DNA from: a virus
DNA: 59,095 nucleotides
Direction: 5' to 3' (one strand)
Virus record (IMG/VR): IMGVR_UViG_3300046501_000666
Span: 1 to 59,095 of that record
Notes under the pieces: generated by a model
Database searches by the model: none
The model's input: only the letters and a program-made list of their open reading frames with translations
Told to the model about the DNA's origin: nothing
Program-made: the position numbers and the translations under genes
In this document: piece by piece, positions 29,739 to 57,378 of the stretch
Layout: the number at the start of each line of letters is the position of its first letter
Numbering within the stretch: position 1 is the first letter of the stretch

Positions 29739-29983
29739 TCGACAAACCCCGGTTCCACGTTATTCAAGGCACGCCCGCTCCTGATACGCCGGTAGAGCAG
29801 GCGCGCAAGCGTGTGCGTGCAATGCCCAAGCCTGCGGCGATGATCCAGTGTCATCGCTGCGGTGGGCGTGAGGTCATCGAGACCAAGACAGGGGTCATGC
29901 TGAAGGACGGTAAGCCGACTGGGGGCACGAAGGCACTGTTGTGCGTTGGATGCCTGATGAACGGCCAGAGAGTCCTTCTTTAG
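29735..29983 (+). CDS. Small zinc-ribbon protein (82 aa)
   Basis: ATGA overlap with the 59-aa gene. CHRCGG (about 39-44) and CVGC (about 71-74) form a zinc ribbon, with a basic N-terminus. Similar short zinc proteins occur in pseudomonad head operons. Function is unknown. Confidence 0.65.
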   Translation: MIDKPRFHVIQGTPAPDTPVEQARKRVRAMPKPAAMIQCHRCGGREVIETKTGVMLKDGKPTGGTKALLCVGCLMNGQRVLL

Positions 29984-30471
29984 TTCAAGCAAGCCGAACG
30001 GCGCTGGTCGTATTTATCCATAAGACCGTAATACTGAGATGGCCAATCTTTCATAGCGGACTGCGCTAGATTGATGGCTCTGAGCTTCTGTTCCACGGTC
30101 TCTGCCATTAAGCCCAGTTGAATGGTACCGATGAGATTAAACGTCACCGCTGCAAGCTCTTTGGGTGCGTAGGCTGTGAAGCGCATAGCGCTATCAGCTA
30201 CTCCCTCACCCAAGACGTGAAATTTTTCTTCGGTCAGGTCAGGGGCGGAGGTTTTGGTGCCCAGGGCTGCAATGCTGGCTAGTACCTGTTCCGCTTTTTC
30301 CCGGATCAATGCTTCTTGCTTGTCCACCCGTTGGATACAGGATTCCGTAGCGGATTGTTGGGTAGCCAGGTAGGACGCATACCAAGTCAGCATGCCGACA
30401 GATAAAGTCACGACCAGACCGAGAAATGAGGCTGTAACAGTCCACCTTGTGGTGGGTTGAAGCGTTTCCAT
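29980..30471 (-). CDS. Reverse-oriented membrane protein in the head operon (moron)
   Basis: 163 aa from the ATG at 30471 (TCTGGAACAGAA before it). A TTG 16 codons upstream is possible. One N-terminal membrane helix (FLGLVVTLSVGMLTWYASYL), then a long helical soluble part. It is opposite to the structural genes and ends convergently with the zinc-ribbon gene, features of a lysogenically expressed accessory gene. It could act in exclusion, but there is no family evidence. Confidence 0.6.
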   Translation of the reverse strand: METLQPTTRWTVTASFLGLVVTLSVGMLTWYASYLATQQSATESCIQRVDKQEALIREKAEQVLASIAALGTKTSAPDLTEEKFHVLGEGVADSAMRFTAYAPKELAAVTFNLIGTIQLGLMAETVEQKLRAINLAQSAMKDWPSQYYGLMDKYDQRRSACLN

Positions 30472-30541
30472 TTCTGTTCCAGATTTCAAACTAATGCGGG
30501 TGAAGGATCCTACCTTCAAACCCCGCTTAGGAAAACCTCAT

Positions 30542-30568
30542 AGCCCTGGCATCCGCCGGGGCTTTTTT
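30542..30568 (+). terminator. Rho-independent terminator
   Basis: AGCCCTGG (30542-30549) pairs with CCGGGGCT (30556-30563), loop CATCCG, then TTTTT. Confidence 0.75.
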
Positions 30569-30571
30569 ATG

Positions 30572-30634
30572 GGCGCGATTCCGGATGGATAGCGCCGCAC
30601 CTGGCCGGATGGCCGTTCAATTGGGCGGATGCCC
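30572..30634 (+). promoter_or_regulatory. Three tandem GGAT-loop hairpins before the scaffold gene
   Basis: GGCGC-gat-TCC-GGAT-GGA-ta-GCGCC (30572-30596), GGCC-GGAT-GGCC (30603-30614) and GGGC-GGAT-GCCC (30623-30634). The last directly adjoins the GGAG ribosome site of the gene at 30644. The loops are identical and the stems differ with compensating changes, so RNA structure is probably conserved. GGA in a hairpin loop resembles RsmA/CsrA sites. Confidence 0.6.
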
Positions 30635-30643
30635 GGAGACCAC

Positions 30644-31432
30644 ATGAAACTGAAACTCGATGAGCAAGGCCACGTTGTCGTTCAAGACGGCCGCCCGGTA
30701 TACGTCCATGACGACGGCAAAGAAGTGCCGTTCGATGCGGTGGGGACCGTGAACACCATCACCCGCCTGAACGGTGAGGCCAAATCCCACCGCGAGCGAG
30801 CCGAATCAGCCGAGGGCAAGCTGAAGGGCTTCGACGGCATCGAGGATGGTGAGGCGGCACGTCACGCAATCGAAACCCTCAAAAACCTTGATGAGGGCAA
30901 GTTGATTCAGGCTGGCAAGGTCGACGAAATCAAGCAGGCGGCCGCTAAAGCAGCTCAAGACCAGGTGGCCGCCGCGAGCAAGACGCACGCCGAGGAGCTG
31001 GCTAAAGCCAAGCAAGGACTGGATCAGCGTGACCAGACCATTCATGGCCTTCTGATTGGTGGGTCGTTCAAGGGCTCCAAGCTGATCTCCGAGAAATTCG
31101 CCATTCCTGCCGACTTGGTGGAAGCCCGTTTCGGTCAGAACTTCAAGGTTGAAGAAAACAAGGTGGTCGCCTACGACGGCGCGGGCAACAAGATTTTTTC
31201 ACGCTCCCGCCCAGGCGAGCTGGCTGATTTCGAGGAAGCACTCGAGTCCATCGTTGAGCAGTACCCCTACAAAGATCACATCCTGAAGAGTTCCGGCGGC
31301 AATGGCGGCGGCGCTCCAAACGGCGGTGGCGGAGGCAATGGCAAGAAGACCGTCACCCGTCAGCATTTCGATTCTCTGGACCCGACCGCAAAGGCCGAGT
31401 TCGCACGTTCCGGCGGCGAAGTCACTGACTGA
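30644..31432 (+). CDS. Scaffolding protein
   Basis: 262 aa from the ATG at 30644. MKLKLDEQGHVVVQDGRPVY at the start, a central coiled coil (residues about 55-135), a small C-terminal domain and a Gly-rich linker (SSGGNGGGAPNGGGGG) before a charged tail. This is the layout of scaffold proteins encoded just before P22-type coat genes. It should guide coat assembly and leave the prohead. Hairpins in its leader may regulate its translation. Confidence 0.7.
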   Translation: MKLKLDEQGHVVVQDGRPVYVHDDGKEVPFDAVGTVNTITRLNGEAKSHRERAESAEGKLKGFDGIEDGEAARHAIETLKNLDEGKLIQAGKVDEIKQAAAKAAQDQVAAASKTHAEELAKAKQGLDQRDQTIHGLLIGGSFKGSKLISEKFAIPADLVEARFGQNFKVEENKVVAYDGAGNKIFSRSRPGELADFEEALESIVEQYPYKDHILKSSGGNGGGAPNGGGGGNGKKTVTRQHFDSLDPTAKAEFARSGGEVTD

Positions 31433-31444
31433 CACCGCGCTTGG

Positions 31445-31486
31445 CCGAAACCCGGATGGGGATCGGTGCTTGGGTCGGATGACCCG
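31445..31486 (+). promoter_or_regulatory. Two GGAT-loop hairpins before the coat gene
   Basis: CCGA-AA-CCC-GGAT-GGG-GA-TCGG (31445-31466) and TGGGTC-GGAT-GACCCG (31471-31486). Same loop and similar build to the set at 30572-30634, with different stem sequences. They lie 40-80 bases before the coat start at 31527. Confidence 0.6.
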
Positions 31487-31526
31487 CTATCAAACCACCC
31501 AAACATTGATCCTTTAGGAGCTTCAA

Positions 31527-32681
31527 ATGGCTAACAACCTGACCGGCCTCGTGCCTACTCTGTACAACGCGGTTGATGTCGTATCGCGCGAGCTGGTGGG
31601 CTTTATCCCTGCCGTTTCGTCCGACATGACCTATTCCCGCGCTGCTGTGGGCCAAACCGTTACATCGCCAGTCACCAACGGCGCTACTGCCAGCGACATC
31701 GTTCCTGCAGTTACCCCGCCAAACGACGGTGATCAAAACATCGGCTCTGTGTCGATGACTATCACCAAGGCGCGCCGTGTGCCGATTCGCTGGAATGGCG
31801 AAGAAAAGCTGGGCCTCGACAACAACGGCGCTTCGTACAACGTCATCCTCCGCGATCAAATCGCGCAGGGTATGCGCACCCTGGTGAACGAGGTCGAAGC
31901 AGACCTGGCTGCGGTCGCCATCAGTGCCTCCCGCGCTTACGGCACCGCTGGCACCACACCGTTCGCCTCTAACTTGGCAGACAGCGCCCAGATGCGCCGC
32001 ATCCTTTCGGACAACGGCGCGCCGCTGGGCGATCTGCAGTTGGTCATCGATACGTCGGCAGGCGCAAACATGCGCACACTGACCCAGCTCTCCAAGGCCA
32101 ACGAAGCTAACGATGACAGCCTGCTGCGTCGCGGTGTGCTGCTGGATGTTCACGGTTTCGCGATCCGTGAGTCTGCGCAGGTCAAAACTCCGCTGGTCGG
32201 TAGCGCCGCTGCGGCAACTACCAACACCACCGGCTACGCAGTGGGCGCGACTGCGATCACTCTCGCGTCGGCTGGTACAGGTGGCGTACTCGCGGGCGAC
32301 ATCATCAGTTTCGCAGGCGACACCAGCAAATATGTAGTGGCAGCAGGCGATGCGGATGTATCGAACGGCGGCGTCATTACCCTGGCTTCTCCGGGCTTGC
32401 GCAAAGCCATTCCGGCCGCAGCTACCGCGGTAACAGTCATCTCTGGCAGCACTCGCAGTGCAGCGTTCGCACGGTCGGCAATCGCGCTGGCGACACGCGC
32501 TCCGGCGCTACCTCCTCAGGGTGACTCGGCGATTGACCGGATGCTGATCACCGACCCGGTGAGCGGCCTGACCTTCGAGGTGGCCATGTACGCCCAGTAC
32601 CGCCAGATGCAGTACGAAGTATCGCTGGCATGGGGCACCAAAGCAGTCAAATCCGAACACATCGCGACTCTGCTCGGCTAA
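31527..32681 (+). CDS. Major capsid protein, P22 coat family
   Basis: 384 aa, ATG after TTTAGGAGCTTCAA. MANNLTGLVPTLYNAVDVVS, VSMTITKARRVPIRWNGEEK and LVNEVEADLAAVAISASRAY match the P22 gene 5 family. An Ala/Thr/Gly-rich insertion (about 230-320) may be the I-domain equivalent. It forms the HK97-fold shell, and the length is near that of P22 coat. Confidence 0.85.
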   Translation: MANNLTGLVPTLYNAVDVVSRELVGFIPAVSSDMTYSRAAVGQTVTSPVTNGATASDIVPAVTPPNDGDQNIGSVSMTITKARRVPIRWNGEEKLGLDNNGASYNVILRDQIAQGMRTLVNEVEADLAAVAISASRAYGTAGTTPFASNLADSAQMRRILSDNGAPLGDLQLVIDTSAGANMRTLTQLSKANEANDDSLLRRGVLLDVHGFAIRESAQVKTPLVGSAAAATTNTTGYAVGATAITLASAGTGGVLAGDIISFAGDTSKYVVAAGDADVSNGGVITLASPGLRKAIPAAATAVTVISGSTRSAAFARSAIALATRAPALPPQGDSAIDRMLITDPVSGLTFEVAMYAQYRQMQYEVSLAWGTKAVKSEHIATLLG

Positions 32682-57352: not shown

Positions 57353-57378
57353 GTTAACTGTATATCCATACAGTTAAC
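57353..57378. promoter_or_regulatory. LexA box between SRAP gene and umuD
   Basis: CTGTATATCCATACAG (57358-57373) matches CTGT-N8-ACAG, inside a larger perfect inverted repeat that extends with GTTAA on each side. The centre is placed to control both the leftward SRAP gene and umuD at 57397. Confidence 0.85.

Follow-up and report, generated by a model that had tools for sequence, protein, structure and literature searches.

Hairpins with GGAN loops before the scaffold and coat genes of tailed phages: a probable translational operator read by the scaffold protein

Tailed phages need scaffold and coat protein in the right proportion. In phage P22, post-transcriptional autoregulation of the scaffolding gene 8 has long been known genetically; to our knowledge, no RNA operator has been defined for it. 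Translational operators are known in other phages. MS2 and other single-stranded RNA phages have operators for the coat protein, and phage T4 has them for RegA, gp32 and gp43.

The DNA analysed here (the window) comes from an IMG/VR record, a viral contig of 59,095 bp. It belongs to a siphophage in which the genes for terminase, portal, head morphogenesis, scaffold, coat and tape measure follow in that order. A scaffold 98% identical to that of the window is encoded by a prophage of Pseudomonas maioricensis, and the host is therefore probably a Pseudomonas. The start of the scaffold gene was placed at the ATG at 30644, where its relatives begin with MKLK. A sequence-only reading of the window had pointed to five hairpins with GGAT loops, C-G closing pairs and differing stems before the scaffold and coat genes, and all five are present as described (Table 1), with a C-G pair closing every loop. 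The first hairpin of each leader has the same build of outer stem, internal loop and inner stem, and the third hairpin of the scaffold leader directly abuts the Shine-Dalgarno sequence, both as noted in that reading. Four of the hairpins also kept the coordinates it gave; the second hairpin of the coat leader, placed there at 31471-31486, was found to span 31472-31485. Nine perfect hairpins with a GGAT tetraloop and a stem of at least 3 bp occur on the + strand of the 59-kb window; five of the nine lie in the scaffold and coat leaders, as compared to about 0.03 expected there by proportion. Two other features of the window were recorded on the - strand: a 179-aa open frame at 29980-30519, opposite to the head genes and without a Pfam or PHROG match, and a perfect 11-bp inverted repeat at 57353-57378 (GTTAACTGTAT-GGAT-ATACAGTTAAC), possibly a repressor operator.

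Table 1. Positions of the hairpins and associated features in the window
Feature	Position	Strand	Description
Terminator-like hairpin	30542-30568	+	Resembles an intrinsic terminator, with U-run; lies directly before the scaffold leader; from sequence
Scaffold-leader H1	30572-30596	+	GGCGC-gat-TCC[GGAT]GGA-ta-GCGCC; outer stem, internal loop, inner stem; covarying
Scaffold-leader H2	30603-30614	+	GGCC[GGAT]GGCC; covarying, covariance-model match
Scaffold-leader H3	30623-30634	+	GGGC[GGAT]GCCC; adjoins Shine-Dalgarno GGAGA
Scaffold Shine-Dalgarno	30635-30639	+	GGAGA; from sequence
Scaffold gene	30644-31432	+	262 aa; Pfam DUF6651, phrog_784/phrog_206; proposed reader of the hairpins
Codons of scaffold residues 41-62	30764-30829	+	Proposed recognition helix, LNGEAKSHRE in the window; R50 codon 30791-30793
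Coat-leader H1	31445-31466	+	CCGA-aa-CCC[GGAT]GGG-ga-TCGG
Coat-leader long alternative helix	31458-31514	+	31458-31475 with 31497-31514; excludes H1 and H2; ends just before the coat Shine-Dalgarno
Coat-leader H2	31472-31485	+	GGGTC[GGAT]GACCC; covarying, covariance-model match
Major coat gene	31527-32681	+	phrog_283

Related scaffold and coat genes were taken from viral contigs, from the genomes of named hosts and from named phages. Judged by this comparison, the five hairpins are one conserved RNA element, which stands before the scaffold gene as H1-H2-H3 and often before the coat gene as H1-H2. It was found in phages and prophages of Pseudomonas, Enterobacterales, Burkholderiales, several alphaproteobacteria and two planctomycetes; the laboratory-accessible phages HK639 and PS-1 are among those that bear it. 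The usual scaffold leader consists of a U-run terminator, H1, a GC-containing linker, H2, H3, the Shine-Dalgarno sequence and AUG-AAA. At least one element hairpin was observed in 140 of 144 unique leaders. The loops of the 344 hairpins in this set were GGAT (303), GGAA (32), GGAC (8) and GGAG (1), and the closing pair was C-G in 298. Spacing is regular: the loops of H1 and H2 lie 23-26 nt apart in most leaders (mode 24), the last two loops 18-26 nt apart, and the last loop precedes the start codon by a median of 16 nt (254 leaders). In some lineages the GGAT of H3 occupies the Shine-Dalgarno position itself (GGTTGGATGACC-ATG). Of 153 unique three-hairpin leaders, 127 have a T-run within the 35 nt that precede H1; several alphaproteobacterial leaders do without the upstream terminator, which the element therefore does not require. 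A kissing contact between GGAT and the ATCC loop of the terminator (30551-30554) was considered and rejected, because relatives do not conserve that loop. Several prophage copies in one symbiont genome, that of Candidatus Fukatsuia symbiotica (five loci), have a degraded element with GGAG in H1, and some of their scaffold frames are truncated or altered.

A covariance model was built from nine leaders and searched against 656 kb. It returned 154 matches, nearly all at scaffold or coat leaders; those in the window cover 30568-30617 (scaffold-leader H1-H2) and 31440-31487 (coat-leader H1-H2, E 1e-13). Among 146 distinct sequences, double (compensatory) changes were observed at all 12 modelled base pairs. 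The compensating stem changes read from the window thus recur in homologous phages, the opposite of the outcome, no covariation, that had been named as speaking against the hairpins. Paired cells amounted to 94.7% of the 146 distinct rows as compared to 72.4% in shuffles, and the covariation score was 0.576, with 0.204 obtained for shuffles and no more than 0.107 for slid partners. These values come from an alignment (146 rows) fitted to the covariance model; RNAalifold, run on a plain MAFFT alignment with no structure fitting, recovered the same hairpins. The folding energy of the scaffold leader does not stand out from that of its shuffled versions (z -0.27), and the case for structure therefore rests on covariation. 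No Rfam family matched the window at gathering score; at a relaxed threshold weak matches appeared around the upstream terminator only.

The position of the element was also recovered by a scan blind to genes. The pattern GGCGCNNNGGGYYGGATRRCCC, scanned over all viral contigs, gave 47 hits, of which homology search placed 28 before scaffold homologues and 14 before coats; of the other five, one is a coat leader whose start had been assigned wrongly, three extend beyond contig ends, and one is apparently due to chance. Covariance-model hits in 300 Pseudomonas genomes numbered 20, and 19 of these lay beside the scaffold described here. The twentieth, a weak match (E 0.007) in one Pseudomonas genome, has neither the scaffold nor the coat gene next to it and is probably due to chance.

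Across the loci compared, the element tracks the N-terminal domain of the scaffold rather than the type of coat. It was present at 140 of 144 unique loci whose scaffold has this domain (174 unique coat loci compared), and in the coat leader at 53 of the 144 loci with the domain versus none of 29-30 without it in the same coat family. Coats about 75-78% identical to that of the window adjoin a different scaffold, one without the first 55-60 residues (MKLK...PVYVHDDGKE...), and at four Acinetobacter-type loci where the scaffold lacks the domain the element was found in neither leader. Where the scaffold has the domain, the element was found beside five types of coat. Three single GGA hairpins near scaffolds that lack the domain, or that went undetected, were picked up where the search region was wider and do not exceed chance. 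At one locus the domain was kept and the element lost, residue 49 there being T; at another the domain is present and the element absent. Many coat leaders have no element, and control of the coat therefore cannot be universal.

Within the N-terminal domain, the letters of the loops vary with a short stretch of the protein. Residue 50, in the motif LNxEAKxHRE, is R in 233 of 235 unique scaffold N-termini. The two exceptions have K50, L130 in the form ITDESKKYKE and L322 in the form LTDESKGYKI, and they are the two of the 235 with GAAN/GATA loops instead of GGAN, in both leaders. By leaders, scaffolds with R50 had GGAN loops in 250 of 256 and GAAN loops alone in none, and scaffolds with K50 had GAAN (259 leaders in all). 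A scan of the viral contigs with the protein motif TDESKxYKxRA found two further lineages, of three and two contigs, and every recognisable element hairpin in them had a GAAN loop in both leaders, as predicted from the protein alone. In the reverse direction, the DNA was scanned for H3 hairpins of the GAAN type ahead of an MKLK start; this gave the seven contigs already known and a stemless, unrelated ORF that is a chance match. In a tree of residues 63-215, from which the helix was left out, the four GAAN lineages fall in four places with well-supported branches between them; a tree-based sign test on the co-switches has four cases, too few to reach 0.05. The scaffold of L130 is only 41% identical to that of its near relative L139 within residues 41-62, as compared to 64-95% outside them, and the loops of the two differ in both leaders.

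Co-inheritance of the scaffold leader with the adjacent 5' end of the scaffold gene could be part of this linkage. However, the loops of the coat leader switch as well, at a distance of over 700 nt, and transfer of one block of DNA therefore does not account for them. On the comparative evidence, the code of the putative recognition helix (scaffold residues 41-62) would be LNxEAKxHRE for GGAN and TDESKxYK for GAAN, the latter in four lineages. The earlier suggestion that a phage structural protein may read these RNAs is supported and can be narrowed to the scaffold, whose N-terminal domain the element follows and whose residues 42-51 switch together with the loops in four lineages. An AlphaFold model of the scaffold, of low global confidence (pTM 0.38), has a helix at residues 32-62; against the PDB the model gave no significant match and no known RNA-binding fold. 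One further scaffold, L253, has the loops AGAT/TGAT/AGAT in its own leader, GGAT in the coat leader, and a helix of the HR type (LTAENASHR), possibly a third code or a relaxed reading.

The hairpins might have no dedicated reader, functioning instead as standby sites for the 30S subunit, as stabilisers of the mRNA or as spacers, and might covary with the scaffold only as neighbours. GGA is indeed like the Shine-Dalgarno core, H3 lies at the ribosome site, and terminators commonly stand before the leader. Even so, we give this explanation little probability. A Shine-Dalgarno mimic should prefer GGAG, but the fourth loop base was G in 1 of 545 hairpins, and mimicry was rejected on this count. 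Coat leaders at a distance switch their loops with the helix, and the rest of the scaffold does not. That the loops pair with the codons for scaffold residues 41-62 is likewise excluded, ATCC having been found in 10 of 266 cases.

The sequence-only reading had also proposed the host Rsm system. A CsrA/RsmA protein, from the host or borne by the phage, would bind the GGA loops and repress or stabilise the scaffold and coat mRNAs. The preference at the fourth loop base, U>A>C over G, resembles that of the CsrB repeats. Pseudomonas and some of the enterobacterial hosts do have csrA, and the leaders are arranged like a classical target, their GGA motifs displayed in hairpin loops and one of the sites placed at the ribosome-binding site (PMC4005645). 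Phage-borne csrA genes are also known, including in hosts without a chromosomal copy (PMC7366521). Against these points, csrA (PF02599) was missing from 22 of 29 host genomes that carry the prophages, including all beta- and alphaproteobacteria tested; the set includes a complete Comamonas chromosome besides some assemblies that are drafts or derive from metagenomes, and positive controls were detected. Of 44 phage records, 43 likewise had no PF02599, the window among them. A phage-borne csrA is the exception among element-bearing phages, the one case being Pseudomonas phage vB_PaeS-D14P of P. aeruginosa, which bears the motif and encodes its own CsrA homologue (BK061589.1, 34738-34890). The hairpins themselves fit poorly: the A at -2 of A(N)GGA was present in 13 of 545, and the loop is a 4-nt GGAN closed directly by Y-R; RsmE binds GGA weakly when it is occluded by secondary structure (PMC4005645). 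Finally, CsrA offers no account of why GAAN replaces GGAN at precisely those points where the scaffold helix is altered. The counts tell against the host Rsm system as the general reader, and we regard any CsrA/RsmA reading as very unlikely. That the major coat or another head protein is the reader, as the coat-operator hairpins of single-stranded RNA phages and the position of the element before the coat in many phages might suggest, is highly improbable, given that at least five coat types have the element, that it is absent beside closely similar coats when the scaffold differs, and that the loops track scaffold residues 42-51.

The reading we favour, and consider probable, is that the hairpins together form a translational operator in several copies, with the phage's own scaffold as its reader; the scaffold would repress its own synthesis and also act on the coat mRNA. 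As expected of an operator, a structured leader lies at the scaffold ribosome-binding site; its RNA specificity is tied to the scaffold by evolutionary evidence. From conservation, covariation, placement, linkage to the N-terminal domain and co-switching, we infer direct binding and repression by the scaffold. The helix at about residues 41-62 would recognise a GGAN loop on a stem closed by Y-R, with Arg50 probably touching G2 of the loop. H1 and H2, with their near-constant loop spacing, would form a paired binding unit. Free scaffold would bind cooperatively and, to judge from the position of H3 at the ribosome-binding site, would block its own translation; repression would relax once the coat has consumed the scaffold. 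Through H1 and H2 of the coat leader, free scaffold would also act on coat synthesis, so that the two products are kept in proportion.

In the window, H1 and H2 of the coat leader lie about 40 nt before the coat start codon, and the minimum free energy fold of this leader is the long helix of Table 1, at -35.0 kcal/mol as compared to -27.6 kcal/mol with H1 and H2 held. For shorter transcripts, up to about base 31500, the best fold is H1 and H2. The long helix is kept with compensations in the window's clade (eight loci, z -2.6 to -4.8), but it is not general, 21 of 79 coat leaders reaching p<=0.05. In the folding model, unfolding the long helix frees the coat Shine-Dalgarno only partly. The folds suggest a bistable coat leader in the window's clade, in which scaffold binding may switch coat translation with either sign.

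Phages with a scaffold that lacks the N-terminal domain have other twin hairpins within 150 nt before the coat, with identical triloops on different stems. The pairs observed were CGT/CGT (two loci), AGT/AGT, AGC/AGC and GGG/GGG (one locus each); twin triloops occurred in 6 of 29 leaders as compared to 0.29 expected from shuffles, one of the six lying in coding sequence. Three other loci have twin triloop hairpins with shorter stems before the coat, and AGG is also found among the triloops. The pattern is in keeping with a wider arrangement, one loop for each type of scaffold. More broadly, and only tentatively, the double-stranded DNA phages may use a protein-RNA recognition code in which the N-terminal helix sets the loop, the scaffold represses its own gene at H3 and switches the coat through a bistable leader, and other scaffolds have other twin-hairpin codes, perhaps as a common means by which tailed phages balance scaffold against coat.

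In this work an operator family and its probable reading helix were identified together, in phages of very many Proteobacteria, with the specificity swaps already made by evolution. If the favoured reading is true, the helix represents a new class of sequence-specific RNA binder, and the element a new RNA family absent from Rfam. The known systems each share part of it. Like the targets of CsrA and RsmA-RsmE (PMC4005645), the leaders have GGA loops, several sites per leader, the last of them at the ribosome-binding site, and likely bridging by a dimer or multimer; unlike them, they have no A at -2, a tetraloop closed by Y-R, hosts and phages without csrA, and a GAAN switch that goes with the scaffold helix. 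As with RegA, gp32 and gp43 of T4, a phage protein would repress translation at the initiation region, autogenously included, but the proteins and RNA shapes are others, and those of T4 are not structural proteins. As in MS2, a structural protein is proposed to read a small hairpin at the ribosome site and so set a ratio of viral proteins; here it would be the scaffold and not the coat, in a double-stranded DNA phage, with three tandem hairpins, a second copy on another gene, and a GGAN tetraloop. P22 has in common with the window a tailed-phage scaffold that would limit its own synthesis while unassembled, and adjacent scaffold and coat genes in one late operon. In Pfam the scaffold of the window belongs to DUF6651 alone, for which no link to P22 gp8 was found there, and in PHROGs to phrog_784 and phrog_206. 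Unlike in P22, the proposed operator here is explicit, repeated, shared with the coat, and linked to a helix not shown in the P22 scaffold.
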